Origin: Bacteroidia bacterium
GTDB taxonomy: Bacteria; Bacteroidota; Bacteroidia; Bacteroidales; UBA12481
NCBI GenBank assembly: GCA_026391235.1
Contig: JAPLDV010000732.1
Span: 1 to 14,119 of the forward strand
DNA length: 14,119 bases
Direction: 5' to 3'
Part shown: piece after piece, positions 2,445 through 12,900 of the stretch
Layout: every line of letters starts with the position of its first letter
How positions within the stretch are numbered: the first letter of the stretch is position 1
The notes under the pieces: generated by a model
Told to the model about the DNA's origin: nothing
What the model saw: the letters and a program-made list of their open reading frames with translations, nothing else
Databases searched by the model: none
Position numbers and translations under genes: made by a program

Positions 2445-2454
2445 AAAAGAATTT

Positions 2455-2484
2455 AGCCTGGGTGATGAGCCCGGGCTTTTTTTT
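2455..2484 (+). terminator. Rho-independent terminator after tRNA-Phe
   Basis: An 8-bp stem (AGCCTGGG at 2455-2462 with CCCGGGCT at 2470-2477, one G-U pair) encloses a 7-nt loop and is followed by a run of eight T residues (2477-2484). It sits ~45 bp after the tRNA 3' end, as expected for a single-tRNA transcript. Confidence 0.85.
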
Positions 2485-2490
2485 CATTTT

Positions 2491-2616
2491 TTCAAATATG
2501 ATTTCTTGATCAGTGCTTCAAGCAAGGATAGTCAATTTGTCGCAGAGATACATAAATCACTCAGGGGCAAAAGGGTATTCTATGCCGATAAGGATATGAA
2601 AGCCAGCGATAGCTGA
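2491..2616 (+). pseudogene. TIR-domain relic (N-terminal fragment, no start codon, early stop)
   Basis: Between the terminator and the next gene one frame reads as the first ~40 residues of a TIR domain. It begins with the strand-A motif YDFLISASSKDSQFV (family form YDvFISh.S.D..fV), continues with an amphipathic helix (AEIHKSL), and ends with strand B and the BB-loop start (KRVFYADKDMKASDS, family form vfyD..l..Gds), where a TGA stops it at 2614-2616. No ATG precedes the motif, and the frame runs back into the T-tract of the terminator. TIR domains in bacteria are often NAD-cleaving effectors of antiphage systems. This fragment lacks the catalytic glutamate region and cannot function. It is best read as the remains of a deleted gene; that origin is inferred from motif resemblance alone. 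Confidence 0.55.
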
Positions 2617-2653
2617 CGTCCGTCTGATCATGCATCTTTTCCAGCCAATGCTA

Positions 2654-2683
2654 TTTGCAAATAATAGGAAGACATTACCTTTA
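2654..2683 (+). promoter_or_regulatory. Promoter of the FISUMP/VWA protein gene
   Basis: TTTG at 2654-2657 and TACCTTTA at 2676-2683 (7 of 8 to TAnnTTTG) are separated by 18 bp. The predicted start of transcription is about 15-20 nt before the ATG at 2706. No Shine-Dalgarno sequence is seen, which is usual in Bacteroidota. Confidence 0.5.
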
Positions 2684-2705
2684 GACGGATAAACCAACTT
2701 GGCAA

Positions 2706-5700
2706 ATGAAAAAAGTTTCTTTCCTTTTATTACTGAATCTATGGTTCAGCTGTGGGTATACCCAATCAGGCAGTTTTACACTTAATTTCAGTGGCAAGGT
2801 GCAAGCCGGAAACACTCCGGTCACTCTCGATAAGGTTCAAATTATTAACCTCACCAGGGGAGTTTCCACCACTCTCAGCAATGGTAATTTTAACTTCCAG
2901 CTTTCTTACGGAACCGGGATCGGCGAGGAAAGTTTCGTCAGGAATAAAAACCTGGTCATCCATCCTGCTTTCCCAAACCCTTTTACCGGGACCGCCGAAG
3001 TGGTGATCGAGCTTCAGAATGCTTCATCACTGCGGATATCGTTGTATGAAGTCACTGGGATGAAATTGAAAGAGCTGTCAGGAGATTTTAACCCGGGAAT
3101 GAATCGTTTTACAGTGACTTCATCGTCCGTGGGATTGCTGTTTTTACAGATCACCGACGGTCAAACTGCCGGTTCGCTGAAACTGGTCAGCACTGCTTCG
3201 TCCGGAGCAGGAAAATCTGATATCGTTTATCAGGGGAACATCAATTACGGAACGAACCTCAAAGTGAGCGAATCTTCCAATCCTTTTTGGTTCATGCTGG
3301 GCGACCGGTTGCAGTTAATTGGCTATTCTGCAGGCTATGCCAACAGCACTATCTATGATTCCCCGGTAGGGAATTTCAGCTATACATTCAGCTTTACCGA
3401 TCCGTTCTACCGGCTGATCGGACGAAATGTCTCCACCGAAACGCCTTGTTTTGTAGATATAATGTTTTCAGTCGAAAACTTACAGTACAAAGGCGCGGAT
3501 AACCTGAGCAACAGCAATTTCAGGGTGCTTGAGGATGGAAATGTGATCAGTCCGACCGAGACCTTCCGGTACATTAAGAAAATCAATACCATACCCTATA
3601 AGATAAAGACGGTATTATTGCTGGATAACAGTGCCAGCGTGGCCGACAAACTGGATGAGATTAAAAAGGCTGCAAAGGCCCTCGTCAGTCTGATAACTGA
3701 GAAACAGGAATTTGCCATTTTCAGTTTTTCGGAAAATGCAATACTCATGCAGGATTTTACCAGTAATGTTTCTCTGCTGACAAATGCCATTAACCGGATT
3801 ATTACAGGTTTTCCAACCACAAACCTGTATGGATCTTTTATTCAGGGCGTAAACAAATGGTCCGAGCAATTCTCAACGACGCTCATTGAGCAGGGTTTTC
3901 TTGTGGTATTTACCGATGGAGACGATACGCAGGGGTCCTACACCCTTCAACAGGCCTTAACTGCCAGAGGTGTCAAAAAAGCCTATATGATAGGGCTGGG
4001 AAGTGAATTGAATCCCGGACCGCTGAACCAGCTCGCCAATCCCGGCCCCTATTTTCCCATTACCAATGTCAGTCAGCTGGAGCCGGTTTTCAAACAGGTA
4101 CAGAACGACATCATCCAGTATGCCAACAGCTTTTACTGGCTTAATTACATGACTCCCAAGCGCACGGGCCTGCACACACTGAGGTTGGAAGTTCTCGACA
4201 ATGATAACACCGGAACCGATTCCTATTATGTCGGGCAGTTCAATGCCAACGGATTCAAATCAGTGTATTCCGGAGTTTTTGTGAATATTTCAGAAAACAA
4301 TTTGTACGGCCTGGATTCCTTACTGGTTAATGATGCAAATCCCTATGAATTAAGGGCCGTGACCTATTGGGCCTATGAACCGCCGGTGTATTCCTGGAAA
4401 TCATCCGACGCAACCCTTGTCACCATAGAAAACGACCCACTGTATTTTAACAGGGCCTGGCTCAAGTTTCCCGGAATCAAGGGGGGTACTGCAATCATCA
4501 CCGTAAATGATAATACCAACGGTTACAAGAAAGAATTCAAGGTAACGGCATACACTCCTCCAACCGTCTCTACGGCTCCCATAACCGATGTCGGTCCGAC
4601 ATCGGCAACCGGAGGCGGCAACGTCACCGGCAATGGCGGTCAGCCGGTTACTGACCGCGGGGTTTGCTGGAATACCTATGGGGATCCGACCATCGGCAAT
4701 CAGCACACCTCTGATGGGAACGGCATGGGGTCCTTCACGAGCCAAATCGGTGGGTTGAGCCCAAGTTCCCCCTATTTTGTCCGGGCCTATGCCACCAATA
4801 GTATCGGAACCTCCTATGGTGATGTTGTCACTTTCAACACCCTACAGCCCGGATTACCATCTGTAACCACCGCTGCTGCAAAAGACACAACAATCAACAG
4901 CGCCCTGTGCGGCGGGGAAGTTACGAATGATGGCGGCAGTGCAGTCACAAGCAGGGGATTATGCTGGAGCCTGAATCCAAATCCCGGGTTAACCGATCAG
5001 GTTGCAACGGTGGGTTCGGGTAAAGGTACTTTTACCAGAACAATTGCCACTCTCACCCCGGCTACCACTTATTATGTACGGGCCTATGCCACCAACAGTG
5101 CAGGGACGGCCTACGGGCAGGAAGTTTCCTTTACCACCACCGTCAGAATTACAGGCACACTTACTGATGCCAGGGATAACAGGACCTATTCGTGTGTAAA
5201 AATCGGAACACAAACCTGGATGTCGCAGAACCTGGCGTACCTGCCGGCAGTGAGCCCCTCTGGCACCGGATCGGAAACAGCCATTCACTATTATGTTTAC
5301 GGCTATGAGGGCACCAGCGTCAGCACGGCAAAAACCCAGGCCAACTATACCAATTACGGAGTGCTGTACAACTGGCCGGCAGTGTTGTCTGCCTGCCCAA
5401 CGGGCTGGCATCTGCCAAGCGATGCGGAATGGACTGTATTAACCGATTACCTCACCAATAACGGATACGGTTATGGAGGCAGCGGAAGTATTAATGGCAA
5501 ATCCATGGCCTCGACATCGGGCTGGACTCCCTCCTCAACAGCCGGAACCGTTGGTAACGACCAGGCAAGCAACAATAGCAGCGGTTTTACGGCCCTTCCG
5601 GGCGGCAACCGCAACAACAATGGGGGCTTCTACGGCCTTGGCGGCCACGCCTACTTCTGGTCGTCCTCAGAGTATGGGTCGTCGTACGCCTGGGGCCGGT

Positions 5701-5783
5701 ACCTGTACCACTCCGACGCCGGCCTGGGCCGGTACGGCGACTACAGGAGTTACGGTTTCTCGGTCCGGTGCTTACAGAATTGA
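2706..5783 (+). CDS. Secreted VWA / Fn3-like / FISUMP-domain protein, candidate DGR target
   Basis: This protein has 1025 residues. Residues 1-19 form a signal peptide (MKKVSFLLLLNL..., likely cut after GYTQ). Residues 83-161 resemble a type IX secretion (T9SS) type A sorting domain (PNPF ... ISLYEVTGM ... LKLV) but sit near the N-terminus. A VWA domain spans about 300-480 with MIDAS residues DNSAS (307-311), T371/T372 and D404 in FTDGDD. A Big/Ig-like stretch follows at about 520-615. Two Fn3-like repeats (about 619-713 and 717-810) each contain RGVCW/RGLCW and FVRAYATNS/YVRAYATNS. A FISUMP domain (TIGR02145 type) covers about 815-1025, with WMSQNLAY, CPTGWHLPSDAEW, FWSSSE and GFSVRC. The FISUMP fold is thought to be C-type-lectin-like. 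The last part (residues 974-1022) is GC-rich, adenine-poor and built mostly of NNC codons, unlike the rest of the gene. The gene is single, with its own promoter. An exported ligand-binding or adhesive role is inferred. Confidence 0.9.
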   Translation: MKKVSFLLLLNLWFSCGYTQSGSFTLNFSGKVQAGNTPVTLDKVQIINLTRGVSTTLSNGNFNFQLSYGTGIGEESFVRNKNLVIHPAFPNPFTGTAEVVIELQNASSLRISLYEVTGMKLKELSGDFNPGMNRFTVTSSSVGLLFLQITDGQTAGSLKLVSTASSGAGKSDIVYQGNINYGTNLKVSESSNPFWFMLGDRLQLIGYSAGYANSTIYDSPVGNFSYTFSFTDPFYRLIGRNVSTETPCFVDIMFSVENLQYKGADNLSNSNFRVLEDGNVISPTETFRYIKKINTIPYKIKTVLLLDNSASVADKLDEIKKAAKALVSLITEKQEFAIFSFSENAILMQDFTSNVSLLTNAINRIITGFPTTNLYGSFIQGVNKWSEQFSTTLIEQGFLVVFTDGDDTQGSYTLQQALTARGVKKAYMIGLGSELNPGPLNQLANPGPYFPITNVSQLEPVFKQVQNDIIQYANSFYWLNYMTPKRTGLHTLRLEVLDNDNTGTDSYYVGQFNANGFKSVYSGVFVNISENNLYGLDSLLVNDANPYELRAVTYWAYEPPVYSWKSSDATLVTIENDPLYFNRAWLKFPGIKGGTAIITVNDNTNGYKKEFKVTAYTPPTVSTAPITDVGPTSATGGGNVTGNGGQPVTDRGVCWNTYGDPTIGNQHTSDGNGMGSFTSQIGGLSPSSPYFVRAYATNSIGTSYGDVVTFNTLQPGLPSVTTAAAKDTTINSALCGGEVTNDGGSAVTSRGLCWSLNPNPGLTDQVATVGSGKGTFTRTIATLTPATTYYVRAYATNSAGTAYGQEVSFTTTVRITGTLTDARDNRTYSCVKIGTQTWMSQNLAYLPAVSPSGTGSETAIHYYVYGYEGTSVSTAKTQANYTNYGVLYNWPAVLSACPTGWHLPSDAEWTVLTDYLTNNGYGYGGSGSINGKSMASTSGWTPSSTAGTVGNDQASNNSSGFTALPGGNRNNNGGFYGLGGHAYFWSSSEYGSSYAWGRYLYHSDAGLGRYGDYRSYGFSVRCLQN
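5625..5771 (+). other. Adenine-depleted 3' coding segment resembling a DGR variable region
   Basis: These 49 codons end at the conserved GFSVRC tail of the FISUMP domain. Thirty of them end in C, only one ends in A, and none is AAN, so Asn and Lys are absent, although Asn is abundant just upstream (NRNNN at 5607-5621). By my count adenine is about 12% of bases from 5621 to 5760. TAC, GGC, CAC, TCC and GAC fill positions around a fixed frame of AYFWSSSE, AW, R and GFSVRC. This is what randomising the adenines of AAC template codons would give. A GC-rich tail at 5754-5771 could serve as the 3' homology site. No template repeat or reverse transcriptase is in the window, so the call is an inference. 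Confidence 0.45.
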
Positions 5784-5856
5784 GGTCTGCCACAATGCGA
5801 TTCACAAGGCACTTTTTTATGGTTTCTGGTTCAGATACCGGTAGTCACCCATGCAC

Positions 5857-6091
5857 TGACACTCACACTCACACTCACACTCATACCCCCTTCTTCCCCC
5901 ACGCGACCACCTGTCATTCCCGCGAAGGCGGGAACCGCTTGACGCTGCACCGAGGCCCTTGATGCCGTTCCCGCGGGAATGACAGGTGCTGCTGCGGGTA
6001 TTTGTGGTAAGGGAAGCGGTTCCCGCCTCCGCGGGAATGACAAGGTCGCGGGGGGGAAATGGGTGTGGGTGTGGGTGTGAGTGTGGGTGGT
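5857..6091. repeat. Compound inverted repeat with dRS3/REP-like palindromes
   Basis: Two ~80-bp arms mirror each other. The cores at 5912-5940 and 6014-6042 are reverse complements at 28 of 29 positions; each contains the palindrome ATTCCCGCG-n-GCGGGAA type. Outside each core is a matching CGCGACC block, a C-rich (or G-rich) run, and then a hexamer tract of CACTCA units on the left (5859-5882) and GTGGGT units on the right (6060-6091). The ~70-bp centre holds a third, shortened copy (5968-5984) lacking 6 bp of the palindrome. The segment lies 74 bp after the FISUMP gene stop. It can fold into a long hairpin and could act as a transcription barrier. It resembles dispersed ATTCCC...GGGAAT repeats of other bacteria rather than a coding element. 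Confidence 0.85.
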
Positions 6092-6336
6092 GAGTTATCT
6101 GTTTTGTTGTTCGGTTCCAAAACTGCGGGGACTCTACGGGCAGTGGTGGATGATGCATGAATAACTTGATGAGAGAATTTCATTACGTCTTTTGAAAGTA
6201 AGAGGGCCTTGTACTACTTTACCACTATTAGATGTAAAGTAAAGTAACGCAAAGTGATACTGATAGATAAAATGGAACGGAATCGCCAGAAGACCTTGAC
6301 ATTGGATAAACAATTGAGTGTGTATCCATATTAACG
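6092..6336. other. Intergenic stretch without recognised gene
   Basis: Short frames with stops on both strands and no recognisable protein motif. AAAGTAAAGTAA at about 6235-6246 is a small local repeat. Nothing here could be assigned. Confidence 0.5.
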
Positions 6337-6366
6337 TAACTTTATGGTAACAAAAATTCCAAAGCC

Positions 6367-6708
6367 ATTAAAAAGCCATTATATTTCATCCTCTCAGCAA
6401 TGGCCTTATTCAGTATTTCTGGTCATGACCCTTCCATAGATATTTCCTGGGAAAAAGTTGACGATGGCTTATACCTGTCAGCATATCTTCCTTCCCAAAA
6501 ATCTTTGGTGGGTGACAGTAAGATTACCATATTAAAGGTTGATCCCTCCAGATATAATTTCAATATGTTTAGTGCAAAGGAAAATGGAGAAAGTGTAAAA
6601 AGTGCCAATGAATGGGCTATGGATTTACGGTTGAAACAATGGGTAGCTATGAAACAGGTTTTTTCGAAAATGATGAAAATGATCGCTATTGGCAAATCCC
6701 CAATATAA
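6367..6708 (+). pseudogene. NAGPA-type phosphodiester glycosidase, N-terminal stub (truncated)
   Basis: The frame from 6367 reads as a signal-peptide start (KKPLYFILSAMALFSISG) preceded by ATT where an ATG is expected, so the original start codon may have mutated; the first in-frame ATG is 6400, inside the hydrophobic segment. The mature part resembles the beginning of the phosphodiester glycosidase domain (PF09992): ISWEKVDDGLYL, then VGDSKITILKVDPSRYNF, then SANEWAMDLRLKQWVA. At that point the family normally continues with the conserved I-N-A-G-M/F and the catalytic domain of ~150 more residues. Here the sequence departs (MKQVFSKMMKM) and stops after ~113 residues. A weak promoter (TTG 6314-6316, TAACTTTA 6337-6344) precedes it. 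The family resemblance is by eye; inactivity follows from the missing domain. Confidence 0.5.
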
Positions 6709-7013
6709 TCGGATTAACAAAAAAGTAACTTGAATGTTATGGGTCTTCATTCCCACATCATGCAATTTAACTCGTCATTAGCAGGTTCGACCAATACTCT
6801 AGGCCTCAAGTGTGGTGGGTTCTTGTTCGTGATTGATATCCAGGTGAGAACAATGGCGAATTCATAATCCGTACCATGCCGGTAACCCCAGTTTAACTTG
6901 CAGGTATTCCGGTAAAAATGTGTCGGACCTGCGAGCATCACTATTGCCATAAAGTTGCTTTCCTCATCCATTAAACCTAATGTTATGCACCAAACCAACA
7001 ACAATGCTCCCAA
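6709..7013. other. Gene-free stretch between two gene remnants
   Basis: No family was recognised here. The only sizeable open frame is 88 codons on the minus strand (7013 down to 6747). It begins with a moderately hydrophobic stretch and ends in LVEPANDELNCMMWE, but has no promoter, no start context and no family resemblance. It is probably non-coding debris between the two truncated genes, or a remnant too short to place. Confidence 0.4.
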
Positions 7014-7019
7014 AGGAAA

Positions 7020-8309
7020 TGGGATCTGGAAAGGGGAAACCCTCAGGCTATCGTCGTATTTCCTTCCCCTGAATCAGTTGCCGGGTATGACCGCTTTAAA
7101 CCGAATCCTGAACGACTGATCAATGAATTGGTAGAGCCGGATTATATCGTCATGGGGCAGAAGCCGGATTACCGAAACGATCCTGCCTGGCAGAATGAAG
7201 ACACACGTCCTGAATTTAATCGAAGGAATCACCTGGCATTCCTGCGAACCTACAATGCACAACGGATTCTTTTTCTCGTGGATAGGCTGGAACTGGAAGA
7301 ACAGGCAAACCGCGATTTGATCCGATTATTAAAGAACGATTACAAGGTTCTGATTTATAAGCAAAACCGGGATGATTGGCGCAAAGCCGAAATCGTCGTT
7401 TCAACCATTCAGACCTTCCTGTCCAATAACCGGTATAAACGGGATTTTGCGCCGGATGATTTCGATATGGTGATCTCGGATGAGGCGCACCGGAGTATCG
7501 GAGGAAACAGCCGGGCGGTTTTTGAGTATTTCATTGGGTATAAGTTAGGATTGACCGCCACCCCGAAAGCGTATCTCAAACATATTGATGTGTCGGCATT
7601 GGGTTCAAACGATCCACGCGAACTGGAACGGCGAATTTTACTGGATACTTATAAAACTTTTGGCTGCGAAACCGGCGAACCTACTTTCCGGTATTCCCTG
7701 CTGGATGGAGTCAAAGAAAGGTACCTGGTTAATCCGGTAGTGGTCGATGCCCGCACGGATGTTACCACCCAGCTTTTATCGGAACAGGGATACGTGGTTA
7801 CGGAACCCAATGAAAACGGAGAGGATGCCGAAGAATCATTCGTGCAGAAGGATTTTGAAAGGAGTTTCTTTTCGGATAATACCAACCGGGTCTTTTGTCA
7901 GACGTTTTTGGATAATGGATTCAAAGATCCGATCACCGGAGAGTTTGGTAAGTCATTAATATTCTGTGTTTCACAAAACCATGCCGCTAAAATTGTCCAG
8001 CTATTGAATGAATTGGCTGATAAACTGTTTCCCGGCAAATACAATTCGGACTTTGCCATTCAGGTTACTTCACAAATCCCCGATGCCAAACAGTTCACGT
8101 TAAGTTTCAAGAACAATAACTTATCGGGTAGTTTTAACTTCAACCTGCTATATAAGACTTCCAAGACGCGTGCTTGTGTTACAGTCGGGATGATGACTAC
8201 CGGGTATGATTGTCAGGATATACTGAATCCGGGATTGATGCGGCCGGTTTATTCACCAACCGATTTCATCAAGATCAAAGGTGTTATTGATAAGGTTTGG
8301 GGAGAGTAA
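7020..8309 (+). pseudogene. Type I restriction endonuclease HsdR remnant (nuclease domain, Walker A and C-terminus lost)
   Basis: The frame matches the middle of an EcoEI-like HsdR subunit. It starts abruptly at WDLERGNPQAIVVFPSPES (7020), a region normally ~110-130 residues into the protein, so the PD-(D/E)xK nuclease domain is missing. No ATG precedes it; a TTG at 7128 is the only candidate start. After LAFLR (about 7233-7247) it jumps to TYNAQRILFLVDRLELE, skipping the ~40-50 residues with the ATP-binding GTGKT motif. Both edges of the gap normally read FLR, so slippage between two FLR-coding copies is a likely cause. The remaining helicase motifs are well kept: ISDEAHRSIGGNSRAVF (DEAH at 7479-7490), GLTATPK, VTVGMMTTGYDC and SPTDFIKIKG. 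The frame ends with VIDKVWGE instead of the arginine-finger motif GRGTR and the long C-terminal part. No HsdM or HsdS gene is present. The lack of a working ATPase site makes function very unlikely. Confidence 0.85.
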
Positions 8310-8341
8310 CATGTTGCCAGATCTATAAAACTTCAGATGCA

Positions 8342-9439
8342 ATGCCCATCAAAGTACTTTTTATAACATATATATCTCAGGCCGGTTCCTCTTCTCTGGC
8401 TGAAAGGATGCTTATAAAAGGACTTTATTTTAAAGGCATTGATCTTACTGTCATCAGTAATGCACCAACACAGGAATGCAGCGAACTTGAATCATTGGGA
8501 ATAAGATTTGAATATTTCCCTATTACAAAAAAAATTAGTTTCACCACTATTGCCAGAATACGTAAAATCCTGTTAGCAGAAAAATATGACATAATGCATC
8601 TTACTTATGGTAAGGCAATTACAAATAGCCTTTTTGCATCAGGGGGAATTCCTGTAAAAATTGTTGTGTTCTTTGGATCAATGAGTGTTTACTGGCATGA
8701 CCCAAGCGCTTATCTCTCTTTTCTTAACTCACGTATTGACAAAATCATCTGTATAAGCGATAATGTCAGAGACCATGTAATGAAACAGTTACGAAAGAAA
8801 GACCGGAATAAGGCAATTAGGATCTACAGAGGATTTGATCCCGGCTGGCTTGGATCGATAGTACCGGTAACGAGGGGATCGCTGAATATTCCTGAAGATG
8901 CATTTGTAATAGGATGTGTTGCCACAGTAAGAAAAATTAAAGGTATCCCTTATTTGATCAATGCTGCAAACTCGCTTCCGGCAGGTCTGCCTGTTTACTT
9001 TGTTATAGTAGGCCGTAATTCTGACAGCCGGAAGATTAAAAAAATGGCCGAAGCAACAAAATATGGAGAAAACTTCAGATTAACCGGGAAGCAGCCTATG
9101 GCCACTGCTTATACCGCGATGAGCGACCTTTATGTTCAGCCTTCAATAACAGAAGGACTGGGAAGAGCAATTATTGAAGCAATGAGCCTTTGCAAGCCGG
9201 TTATTGTTACAGATAATGGAGGAGCAAAGGAACTTATTGAAGAGGGCAAATGCGGCTTTGTGGTCCCGGCAAAATCATCGGCCGCTATCGCTGAAAGAAT
9301 ACTGTATTGTTTAAAAAATCGTGATTTATTAAAGGTCATTGGGGAAAATGCAAGGGAACGTATTAGTAGTTATTTTCATATAGACAGCTCAGTCAGCCAG
9401 ACCGTTGACCTGTATCGTGAAATAAGAGGTAAGAATTAA
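8342..9439 (+). CDS. GT4 family glycosyltransferase
   Basis: This 365-residue protein is counted from the ATG at 8342 (MPIKVLFITY). The frame stays open upstream to a TTG at 8297, but those 15 codons overlap the HsdR remnant and lack family character. It has a two-lobe GT-B architecture. The N-terminal lobe begins with VLFITYISQAGSSSLAERML, where the glycine/serine loop contacts the acceptor. The second lobe begins near VIGCVATVRKIKGIPYLI. It carries YFVIVGRNSD and the retaining-enzyme donor site PSITEGLGRAIIEAM, whose E271 and E279 form the EX7E motif. No membrane segment is seen, so a cytoplasmic enzyme acting at the inner membrane on a polysaccharide or glycolipid is likely. Donor and acceptor cannot be told. 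The gene is more AT-rich by eye than the FISUMP gene. About 160 bp with a promoter separate it from the next gene. Confidence 0.9.
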   Translation: MPIKVLFITYISQAGSSSLAERMLIKGLYFKGIDLTVISNAPTQECSELESLGIRFEYFPITKKISFTTIARIRKILLAEKYDIMHLTYGKAITNSLFASGGIPVKIVVFFGSMSVYWHDPSAYLSFLNSRIDKIICISDNVRDHVMKQLRKKDRNKAIRIYRGFDPGWLGSIVPVTRGSLNIPEDAFVIGCVATVRKIKGIPYLINAANSLPAGLPVYFVIVGRNSDSRKIKKMAEATKYGENFRLTGKQPMATAYTAMSDLYVQPSITEGLGRAIIEAMSLCKPVIVTDNGGAKELIEEGKCGFVVPAKSSAAIAERILYCLKNRDLLKVIGENARERISSYFHIDSSVSQTVDLYREIRGKN

Positions 9440-9498
9440 TCATTTCATTGGTCCATAATCTGGCAACCTCAAGCCTGGCGAACGTTTTCCTTTCGCTG

Positions 9499-9530
9499 TT
9501 GCTTATCTGCTGATTATTCTTTTACCTTCG
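9499..9530 (+). promoter_or_regulatory. Candidate promoter for the barrel protein / GT39 / GtrA genes
   Basis: TACCTTCG at 9523-9530 (7 of 8 to TAnnTTTG) is preceded by TTG at 9499-9501 with a 21-bp spacer. The leader to the ATG at 9602 would be about 65 nt. No terminator was seen between this point and the GtrA gene, so a three-gene transcript is plausible. Confidence 0.4.
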
Positions 9531-9601
9531 TGTGCGGCAACATGGACTTTGACAATGTTTCAAGTGGCCTGGAAACCAGTACAAAACGTATCTAAATTAC
9601 A

Positions 9602-10672
9602 ATGAAACGAATTCATCTGATTCTAACTTTGATGGTTTTCGGGATTACGGTTTCGGCTCAAAAGCATGAATTTCAGATGAAGCTGAGCTCTTTTTTCGAC
9701 AATACGGAATTTGGATTTTCCAAAATTCAAATGCCACAAACGATGGCAGGGGTTCACGTTGAACCCTCTTTCGGAATTAGTTTTCAAGAAAGCCACAGCA
9801 TACATGCAGGAGTCAATCTTTTACATGAATTTGGAAGCGATCAGGCCATAGGCTTTTGGGATCCGATGGCATACTATCAGTTCGATAATAAACCATTTCG
9901 GTTTCTGATGGGCGCTTTCCCGCGAGAAAATGCGGTAGACAAGTATCCGCGGATATTCTTTCAGGATTCTATTTCCTATTATCGACCAGCAATCAACGGT
10001 TTGGTCTGGCAATTCATTAAAAATAATAGTTATGCCAATGTTTGGTTGGATTGGACAAGTCGCCAGACGACCAGGCGCCATGAGGCATTTTTCATGGGAT
10101 GGAGCGGCAGGCTTTCGTTAAACTGGTTTTATGTGCAGCAATTTGCCTACATGTTTCACTTTGCCGGAATAAAGAATCCGGCAGTAGATGAAGCCTTGCA
10201 CGATAATGGTTTAATCCTTTCGTCGCTGGGGATAGATCTGGCAAATCAGGCGGGGTTCGAAAAGCTTGAATTAAATGTGGGATACGTGGCAGGATTGGAA
10301 CGGGCGAGGGCCGAAAGCAGTAACTGGCACATTCAAAAAGCTCTGTTATCAGAAGTGAGAGTCGAATACAAGGGGATTGGCTTAATGAATACCTTTTATA
10401 AAGGTGATGGTCAGATGTATTATTATAAAAGCCATCGCAATGAATTGTACTGGGGTGATCCCATGTATCAGGCTTCTGCCTATAACCGTACGGATATGTA
10501 CATCAATTTCCTGAATTCGGATGTGATAAAAGCGCGTTTTACCTACTCTCTTCATTTTGCTGAAGGAACAACGTATCACGAGCAAATGCTCAAAGTTTCG
10601 TTCGATATCAATCGTCACGGCAAGAAGGATGCATTACCTCCCCGCTATCTTTGGAGCACCTGGTTTAACTAA
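9602..10672 (+). CDS. Probable outer-membrane beta-barrel protein of unknown function
   Basis: This 356-residue protein has a clear signal peptide (MKRIHLILTLMVFGITVSAQ, cut near residue 19-20). The rest is rich in alternating polar and aromatic residues typical of membrane beta strands (for example FRFLMGAFPRE, NVWLDWTSRQ, LSLNWFYVQQFAYMFHF, ARFTYSLHFAEG), and the end LWSTWFN is aromatic. There is no lipobox and no TonB-dependent receptor plug. I do not recognise a named family. Thirty-seven base pairs separate it from the downstream GT39-like gene on the same strand with no terminator, so they are probably co-transcribed. That context suggests, without proving, a part in envelope glycan export, modification or anchoring. 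The barrel assignment rests on composition and strand pattern only. Confidence 0.7.
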   Translation: MKRIHLILTLMVFGITVSAQKHEFQMKLSSFFDNTEFGFSKIQMPQTMAGVHVEPSFGISFQESHSIHAGVNLLHEFGSDQAIGFWDPMAYYQFDNKPFRFLMGAFPRENAVDKYPRIFFQDSISYYRPAINGLVWQFIKNNSYANVWLDWTSRQTTRRHEAFFMGWSGRLSLNWFYVQQFAYMFHFAGIKNPAVDEALHDNGLILSSLGIDLANQAGFEKLELNVGYVAGLERARAESSNWHIQKALLSEVRVEYKGIGLMNTFYKGDGQMYYYKSHRNELYWGDPMYQASAYNRTDMYINFLNSDVIKARFTYSLHFAEGTTYHEQMLKVSFDINRHGKKDALPPRYLWSTWFN

Positions 10673-10709
10673 ATACCGGTAGTTACTAAAACTGAAAGAA
10701 TGGTCAGAT

Positions 10710-12383
10710 ATGTTTAAACCAGATTACAAAAAGATTTTCCTTTTCCTTTTGATTGTCACATTTGTCCTCAATTTAGCGCAGGCACTCTTTACCGGCATTT
10801 TGAGCGATGAAGCCTATTATGGATTGTATGGAGCCAATCTTAGCTGGGGATATTTTGATCATCCTCCAATGGTTGGTTTATTAGTCAAATTAAGCTCATT
10901 GATCTTCTCAGGCACATTAGGCATCCGGTTTATGAGCGTTGTTGTGCATGTTTTCACTATCCTGCTGACATGGAAACTGATCGAAGAAAATCATCCGGAT
11001 ACACGCAAAGTGGCTATTTTCTTTTTGTTAGTCGGGACTTCGGTTATGTTTTCAGCGTATGGATTTGTAACCACTCCCGACTCTCCTCTTTTATTTTTTG
11101 TAGCTCTGTTCCTCTATGCTTACCGAAATTTCCTGAAAGAAAAGAATTGGGGAGCAACACTTCTGTTATCCGTTGCAATGGCAGGAATGATTTATAGCAA
11201 ATACCAGGCTGCTATTGTTATTGCTTTAGTGGTTTTCTCAAATCTCCGATTGCTTCGCAATGGAAAATTCTGGCTATCAGGCATATTCGCTTTAGTATTA
11301 TTATTTCCCCATTTCTATTGGCAATATATTCACGATTTCCCCGGATTCAAATATCATTTGGTCGACCGTTCGGGTATTTTTAAATGGCGCTATATCTACG
11401 AGTATATACCTAATCAAATGGCTTCTTTCAATCCATTTATATTCTGCGCAATCATTTTCGTACTTCTAAAATTCAAAGCAAAAGACACCTTCGAACGGGC
11501 ACTCTATTTTTTAATTATCGGATTTATTGCATTCTTTTGGATAACCGGTTTTCGGGGGCATGTTGAACCGCATTGGACTGTTTCAGCTGCTATTCCGACG
11601 ATCATACTGCTTTTTCGCCGCAGTTTTGAGAACAAAAAGTTGATGGGATACGTACTGAAAGTCATTCTTCCCTCTTTTTTGCTGGTTTTAGTTATCCGGC
11701 TGTTGATTATTGTGAACGATACGGCAAAAACAATGGCCGGTTTTGATAAACGGAGAGCAGAGACAGAGTATGTGGGGAAATTGGCAGGAAATGTACCTGT
11801 GCTGTATATAGGTTCGTTTCAGAGTCCATCGACCTACTCTTTTTTCAATGGCAAAAAGGCACTCTTGATCAGTACCCTCGATACACGCCGCACGCAATTC
11901 GATTTCTGGCAATGGGAAACTCAGTATCAAAACAGAGCCGTTTTTGTTTGTGCTGATATTCCCGGCAAATCAAGAACTTTTGAAAGTGGCGAACAAAGTG
12001 TTACGGGATTTTTTACTGATAGTCTGCAAACAGTTACCCGGATGCGCATCAAGTACATTCCTCCTGCGAATCAAATGATTTCAGGACAAAATATCGTACT
12101 TGATTGTACGATTCAAAATCCTTATACCTTCTCAATTGATTTCAATCACCAACAGTTTCCTGTTGAATTAAAGGCAGCTTTCTTAAAACGCAAGGCAACA
12201 TTTCTTCAACCGGTTCAAATGGATCATCCTATTGGAATTATTCAACCTGGAGAGAGTATCAACAGGACTTTGAGCTTTGTTGTGCCCAAGCTTGGGAGAG
12301 GAAAATACCAGTTTGGTCTTTCACTTACCAATTGTCTGGGACCATCACTCAACAGTAAATATGAAAAAGTAAATCTTGAATAA
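10710..12383 (+). CDS. GT39-like (ArnT/PMT_2) integral-membrane glycosyltransferase
   Basis: This 557-residue protein belongs to the GT-C fold. After the first membrane helix the catalytic loop SDEAYYGLYG carries the acidic pair D33-E34, followed by WGYFDHPPM (46-54), a hallmark of the PMT_2 family (PF13231). About ten hydrophobic segments run to residue ~336, including the motif region GFVTTPDSPLLFF. The final ~220 residues are soluble and would face the periplasm. They contain a beta-rich segment at about 440-550. Such enzymes move a sugar from a polyprenyl-phosphate donor to lipid A, a polysaccharide or protein in the periplasm. The acceptor here is unknown. The stop codon overlaps the TTG start of the GtrA-like gene by 8 bp, which ties the two functionally: GtrA-like proteins are thought to flip polyprenyl-linked sugars. 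Confidence 0.9.
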   Translation: MFKPDYKKIFLFLLIVTFVLNLAQALFTGILSDEAYYGLYGANLSWGYFDHPPMVGLLVKLSSLIFSGTLGIRFMSVVVHVFTILLTWKLIEENHPDTRKVAIFFLLVGTSVMFSAYGFVTTPDSPLLFFVALFLYAYRNFLKEKNWGATLLLSVAMAGMIYSKYQAAIVIALVVFSNLRLLRNGKFWLSGIFALVLLFPHFYWQYIHDFPGFKYHLVDRSGIFKWRYIYEYIPNQMASFNPFIFCAIIFVLLKFKAKDTFERALYFLIIGFIAFFWITGFRGHVEPHWTVSAAIPTIILLFRRSFENKKLMGYVLKVILPSFLLVLVIRLLIIVNDTAKTMAGFDKRRAETEYVGKLAGNVPVLYIGSFQSPSTYSFFNGKKALLISTLDTRRTQFDFWQWETQYQNRAVFVCADIPGKSRTFESGEQSVTGFFTDSLQTVTRMRIKYIPPANQMISGQNIVLDCTIQNPYTFSIDFNHQQFPVELKAAFLKRKATFLQPVQMDHPIGIIQPGESINRTLSFVVPKLGRGKYQFGLSLTNCLGPSLNSKYEKVNLE

Positions 12384-12771
12384 TTTGTTTAGCAAAGTAC
12401 TCATATATAAGTTTTTAAAGTTTTGTGCAGTCGGCTTCTCAGGCGTTTTTGTTGATTTTGGTCTCACCTGGTTGCTGAAAGAAAAAGCTAAGTTTAACAA
12501 GTATTTGGCCAGCTCACTTGGATTTGTCACAGCTGCCACTTCCAACTATTTTCTCAACCGGTTTTGGACTTTTCATAGCCAAAACAATCAAATTGTTACC
12601 GAATACTTCTCCTTTTTCTTTATTTCAATCATGGGTTTAGGTATTGTTAATCTACTTATTTACATTGCTAACGACAGGCTTAAAATCAACTTCTATGTAG
12701 CCAAACTCCTGGCAATCGTCGTGGTAACGATTTGGAACTTCGTAATGAATTATTCGTTCACTTTTCGTTGA
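12376..12771 (+). CDS. GtrA-like membrane protein (putative polyprenyl-phosphate-sugar flippase)
   Basis: This 131-residue protein has the usual GtrA (PF04138) length and four predicted membrane helices (about 10-32, 38-58, 72-97 and 103-128). Visible family motifs are FLKFCAVGFSGVFVDFGLTW near the start and NYFLNRFWTF in the loop after helix 2, echoed by WNFVMNYSFTFR at the end. No ATG lies in frame: an in-frame stop at 12370-12372 leaves TTG at 12376 (or TTG at 12385) as the start, and 12376 overlaps the preceding gene's stop by 8 bp, which favours coupled translation. GtrA proteins are thought to transfer polyprenyl-phosphate-linked glucose or similar across the inner membrane, providing the donor for a GT-C enzyme such as the one encoded upstream. 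Confidence 0.88.
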   Translation: MNNLFSKVLIYKFLKFCAVGFSGVFVDFGLTWLLKEKAKFNKYLASSLGFVTAATSNYFLNRFWTFHSQNNQIVTEYFSFFFISIMGLGIVNLLIYIANDRLKINFYVAKLLAIVVVTIWNFVMNYSFTFR

Positions 12772-12900
12772 TATATAGTTTTCTCCGGGTTGGTTGGACA
12801 CTTTTAACGGCTTGGTAAATGACTTTTGCTCCAAAAAAACAACCGCTTGCATTTCACAACGATATTTTGAATATTTTTAAAGCCTTTAAATCAGGAGATC

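Follow-up and report, generated by a model that had tools for sequence, protein, structure and literature searches.

Can the target of a diversity-generating retroelement (DGR) be recognised when neither its template nor its reverse transcriptase (RT) lies beside it? The question is raised by contig JAPLDV010000732.1 of a Bacteroidia bacterium (assembly GCA_026391235.1), whose 14,119 nucleotides are here called the window and which carries a gene for a 1025-residue protein with a FISUMP (Fib_succ_major) domain at its C-terminus. We conclude, with a probability of about 0.92, that the variable repeat (VR) of a FISUMP-type DGR, acting or having acted from elsewhere in the genome, forms the 3' end of the gene. 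An initial annotation had already proposed the gene to be a DGR target, or a descendant of one, with template and RT outside the window, and this proposal is supported by agreement with the variable columns of outside templates, by mosaic tails in a close relative (G002), and by template-like open reading frames (ORFs), with none of the missing parts found in the window.

The unusual composition first ascribed to the tail was reproduced on recounting: 5625-5771 comprises 49 codons, 30 of them NNC and none AAN, with an adenine share of 11.6% compared to 26.3% in the whole gene and 27.0% in the whole window. Only four of 977 49-codon sliding windows along the gene are free of AAN, all starting at 5622-5631, and the five lowest in adenine start at 5619-5631. 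The tail, with its GFSVRC close, does lie at the 3' end of a FISUMP gene, as scores far exceed the curated cut-offs for both TIGR02145 (130.9 versus 41.65 bits) and PF09603 (residues 831-1023, E 1.2e-33, 117.4 versus 33.9 bits), and the end of the repeat coincides with that of the gene and of the C-terminal FISUMP domain.

Complete FISUMP DGRs of other Bacteroidales served as positive controls. A DNA search with a guessed template across 393 genomes of the order (best two candidates per genome scored) gave matches in 18, and nine of 15 stretches around these matches held an RT with the motif PIGNLTSQ adjoining an Asn-rich template of 12-16 AAN codons; a FISUMP VR was also present in five of the nine (L172, L173, L176, L178 and L180). 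By motif reading, L185 and L186 have an RT and no template, and L175, L181, L182 and L183 have no RT, although an RT profile does find one in L175 (G057). The five pairs of template repeat (TR) and VR differ almost solely at template adenines, and the stretch matched in the four clean pairs spans 189-200 nt, beginning near A-L-P-G-G (A-P-F-G-G in L178) and stopping shortly after GFSVRC; the start of the window repeat matches three of these four. Scaffold, variable columns and repeat extent in L172, L173, L176 and L178 are as in the window, but their VR, TR and RT are packed into about 3 kb, whereas neither TR nor RT occurs in the 8.3 kb downstream or 5.6 kb upstream of the window repeat.

We then used seven real FISUMP templates as a ruler for 54 aligned tails (collected by a regular expression that misses some), taking as columns the 23 positions that are Asn in at least four of the seven. 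Counts cover 38 of the 54 rows, leaving out the seven template rows and nine rows of L158, L164 and L180, which have another scaffold with deletions. At these columns the window has NNY at 23/23 and NNC at 21/23, reading AAC, AAC, AAC, AAT, TAC, GGC, GGC, CAC, TAC, TAT, TAC and GGC at columns 1-12 and TAC, TAC, TCC, GAC, GGC, GGC, TAC, GGC, GAC, TAC and TAC at columns 13-23. The NNC share is far above that of the gene upstream (316/959, Fisher 1.4e-8), of the FISUMP domain before the repeat (50/129, p=1.8e-6) and of the other repeat codons (15/35, p=1.6e-4), while a comparison restricted to NNY codons sets the repeat only weakly apart from the upstream FISUMP domain (21/23 versus 50/73, p=0.023). 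Both NNT codons sit where the L150 template has AAT.

Compared with the template codons, the window has kept the third base and changed the first two, leaving the adenines of the 5' part unchanged. Adenine is retained at codon position 1 in four columns, all in the 5' part, and at position 2 in 16 of 23, much as in the control VR L173 (five and 20 columns). None of the 19 rewritten columns keeps A at position 1; they read TAC (8), TAT (1), GGC (6), GAC (2), CAC (1) and TCC (1), encoding nine Tyr, six Gly, two Asp, one His and one Ser, so that every fill codon initially listed (TAC, GGC, CAC, TCC and GAC) is present alongside one TAT. Changes confined to template adenines are thus seen against outside templates rather than a cognate one. 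The Asn codons that had been described as lying upstream do exist, but they fall on template Asn columns and therefore belong to the repeat as its unmutated 5' part, offering no contrast to it, and the bounds 5625-5771 proved too narrow (Table 1).

Table 1. Features of the window gene and of the variable repeat proposed at its 3' end.
Feature	Position in window	Strand	Basis or remark
Whole gene: hydrophobic leader (N-terminal), VWA, Fn3/Ig-like repeats, FISUMP (C-terminal)	2706-5783	+	leader read by eye
VWA domain, residues 303-462	3612-4091	+	PF00092, E 5.6e-9
Region of two Fn3/Ig-like repeats	4768-5138	+	74-nt copies at 4768-4841 and 5065-5138, 70% alike
FISUMP (Fib_succ_major) domain, residues 818-1025	5157-5780	+	TIGR02145, E 8e-38
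Inferred DGR variable repeat, fuzzy ends	5586-5780	+	starts F-T-A-L-P-G-G
5' part of repeat, template adenines unchanged	5607-5621	+	AAC CGC AAC AAC AAT
Putatively rewritten part, 19 template-Asn columns	5631-5753	+	comparison with outside templates
GFSVRC, conserved closing stretch of repeat	5754-5771	+	

By NNC count the window ties for sixth among the 38 counted tails, below L096, L122 and L140 (23/23) and below L152 and one L168 tail (22/23), and VRs that adjoin a template reach 17/23 (L150), 16/22 (L153), 16/23 (L159) and 20/23 (L173). These data suggest that, with other species' templates as the ruler, the codons of a DGR target are enough to identify it in the absence of its own template and RT. 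The score is graded rather than a clean split, because the family tails spread without a gap, with the window near the top; it yields candidates for read data and predicts 23 variable residues in the window protein. In L168, L240 and L139 a single ORF holds two or three FISUMP tails, some of them internal; NNC counts for the three in L168 are 20, 22 and 21 of 23, so that several repeats per gene may be rewritten.

Tails of close relatives show the same split between codon positions. The M16 peptidase of the window is 93% identical to that of PowLak16_MAG2 (G001, locus L004) and 90% to that of Loclat_bin-03441 (G002, locus L005). Among three paralogous G002 tails (L096, L140 and L122, each 23/23 NNC), third bases differ at 124/260 in the upstream FISUMP domain, at 14/123 in other repeat codons and at 0/69 in the Asn columns, where first and second bases differ at 74/138; the 0/69 is partly selected, the tails having been picked for all-NNC (the 14/123 less so), and Fisher values are only a guide here because the pairwise counts are not independent. 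Between the window and these three tails, third bases differ at 6/69 and first and second bases at 80/138 in the Asn columns, compared to 27/123 third bases in other repeat codons and 169/312 in the upstream domain. Most constant codons of the window repeat are the same as in the G002 tails, so the window's template and theirs are probably closely related. A template-like peptide query of a protein collection returned 47 proteins (36-115 aa by search rule), 43 of which have at least 13 Asn in the aligned part, and one of them, P0122, has SSSENDAS, DGV and GFSARCLQ in common with the G002 tails.

Besides the selection and non-independence in the G002 counts, several results weigh against a DGR origin of the tail. 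Two further columns with AAT in L150 read TAC in the window, the unvarying repeat codons are also often C-ending (15/18 NNY), and NNC in 24 other family tails runs from 2/21 to 23/23 as a gapless continuum. None of the 47 template-like proteins matches the window's own constants exactly, and no strain-level variation was seen, the protein cluster of the gene product having one member. Within the window, an ungapped adenine-tolerant scan of both strands found no template, only the repeat itself (next best 57% non-A mismatch), and an 11-sequence DGR RT profile found no DGR RT. No FISUMP template was found in 12 family genomes, of unstated assembly completeness, and only one of the 12, G012, has a DGR RT, which adjoins its own non-FISUMP TR/VR. 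Because template and RT are absent from the window and a FISUMP template from the 12 genomes, the window gene would be a remote or orphan target.

The G012 system (L208, about 7215-9705) combines an RT bearing the motifs IGNYLSQ and YCDD with an adjoining TR/VR pair of 112 nt, mismatched at 20/31 A and 1/81 non-A positions. A template pattern allowing two mismatches or fewer matched in one of the 12 family genomes, at G006:C146, and was rejected, there being no FISUMP or RT pattern in the 20 kb around it. DNA search of the 12 genomes gave 18 matches in six, all checked and none template-like, with at most six AAN in 43 codons (one 30-nt scrap has 4/10). In DGR RTs the motif xGxxxSQ takes the place of the QGxxxSP of group II introns. 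RTs matching PF00078 occur in six of nine relatives, and none of the ten stretches is DGR-type by motif: eight have QGxxxSP (group II intron or retron-like), L133 has an RT-like ORF lacking that motif, and L135 has no ORF of the size asked. Weak DGR RT profile matches in G001, G002, G006 and G008 are these same RTs, and the RT adjoining a FISUMP match in G006:C43 is likewise one of the non-DGR RTs. In viral contigs the template patterns gave nothing, a longer VR pattern gave nothing there or in genome contigs, and a degenerate VR pattern (TCGNNC...) hit three viral contigs, taken from their ORFs as chance matches in G+C-rich phages. Phage records yielded no match by DNA similarity.

The main rival is that the tail is a fossil, written by an ancestral DGR whose template and RT have since been lost and now subject to ordinary evolution or paralogue recombination. 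It accords with the lack of a FISUMP template, and of a DGR RT adjoining FISUMP, in the 12 family genomes, and with a search of relatives that gave 21 genomes with matches at E 1e-10 (best two candidates per genome scored): a DGR RT match at E 1e-10 was found in 12, those in G294 being fragments with stops and that in G012 serving another target, and in none of the other nine (G001, G002, G005, G009, G080, G083, G086, G230 and G280). However, third bases are well kept for a long decay, as the comparison of window and G002 tails shows, and many assemblies are fragmentary, so that a lost RT is indistinguishable from a missing contig. We regard a fossil as possible but less likely than not and lean towards an active remote system that the assemblies have missed. 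That the window tail descends from a DGR-written one is very probable, while the odds that it is still being rewritten are about even.

Diversifying selection acting on a lectin-like binding face, together with a preference for C-ending codons and without any retroelement, would fit the variability of the tails, the C bias of other repeat codons, the continuum of NNC shares and the abundance of FISUMP-like DNA (29 matches at E ≤ 1 in G002, many short). It gives no reason for third bases being kept while both first bases change, for the match with 23 columns that outside templates define, or for constant codons that stay near-identical next to a diverged upstream domain, and we consider it very unlikely. 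Eight family tails (G003, G004, G007, G008 and G009) have NNC at only 2/21 to 11/23, so the high share is not a property of the FISUMP domain as such. Gene conversion between FISUMP paralogues alone, to which 3' flanks common to several G001 and G002 tails might point, is hardly credible as the source of the mosaic, since it would have carried along the variable codons, which differ, and since part of the common flank also occurs at G001:C39 with no FISUMP frame seen beside it and the window, by eye, lacks that flank. The partial copy at G001:C39 led us to reject the flank as a target-site element and to take it as a dispersed repeat.

A DGR acting from elsewhere in the genome would, by analogy with known DGRs, have its Asn(AAC)-rich template RNA reverse transcribed by an adenine-misreading RT, and the cDNA would replace roughly 190 bp (5586-5780) as far as the fixed GFSVRC end. 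The initiation of mutagenic homing site would lie at about this GFSVRC stretch; no common VR-side hairpin was found, and the control repeats themselves share none. The gene would then encode an exported VWA/Fn3-like protein whose lectin-like tip carries 19 rewritten residues, making it a diversified binding protein. More tentatively, and with the odds somewhat against it, a single FISUMP template-RT pair, located elsewhere in the genome or on a separate replicon missed by assemblies, may rewrite many scattered FISUMP genes in trans, the window gene among them, so that the clade varies many surface lectins in a class of targets that RT-centred surveys overlook.

FISUMP targets of DGRs are already published: in the portions of PMC4159848 dealing with target domains, Fib_succ_major is listed with nine putative variable proteins from human microbiomes, and the window gene is a further example. 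The relevant passage of PMC8934634 restates Fib_succ_major as a target domain, and PMC8144416, a large survey, states that it would itself miss remote targets and assigns C-type lectin folds to annotated VR regions. A literature search pairing a DGR term with the name FISUMP gave no match, whereas Fib_succ_major does match. As far as the excerpted account in PMC4159848 goes, its targets have the same C-terminal domain, there thought to be the diversified part, but the window differs in its VWA/Fn3-like front, in a template and RT that do not adjoin, and in having relatives from lakes and sediments, by record names, rather than from the gut. Known targets with a VR apart from the RT resemble the window in this respect, except that for the window no template was found.

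The gene product is probably a surface protein and probably exported, to judge from the N-terminal hydrophobic leader. The VWA domain that had been annotated is present (Table 1), while the Fn3-like repeats stood only in part, PF16974 (Ig-like) exceeding its cut-off and the fn3 models falling below theirs. For the FISUMP domain a fold like that of C-type lectins is predicted; a sequence search of solved structures with the single domain found no match, one with the alignment found only three weak matches (E 0.18-0.19), and TaqVP, the variable protein of the Thermus aquaticus DGR (PDB 5vf4), was not found by sequence. Comparison with PHROGs gave no match. The VWA front part has at least 108 protein matches at E 1e-20, its own included, among the best 7995 candidates by shared words that were scored. 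This front is joined to FISUMP in P0169-P0171 (56-58% identical), to FGE-sulfatase domains in P0232 and others, and to Lcl_C, which we take to be the domain formerly named DUF1566, in P0173 and P0174, as if, judging from these domain lists, VWA were a carrier for swappable lectin-like tips. DUF1566 and FGE-sulfatase are both among the DGR target domains in the listed part of PMC4159848. A Por_Secre_tail-like stretch (2970-3173, residues 89-156, E 1.5e-4, under cut-off) lies near the N-terminus, where a type IX secretion sorting domain is not expected.

The FISUMP gene is located in a variable slot, 2445-12851, which relative to other genomes is an insertion between two conserved blocks; the same blocks are 358 bp apart in L005, 3.2 kb in L004 and 5.0 kb in L006, with other genes. 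TG/CA-rich stretches in opposite orientation flank the gene (2416-2444, 5860-5899 and 6050-6089), the 2416/5860 pair being 86% complementary over 29 nt, and a second pair of 29-nt arms (5912-5940 and 6014-6042) is 97% complementary and REP-like. Further downstream, a ResIII/DEAD helicase ORF (7128-8309) resembles a type I restriction subunit in truncated form, and its end is overlapped by a glycosyltransferase ORF starting at 8297.
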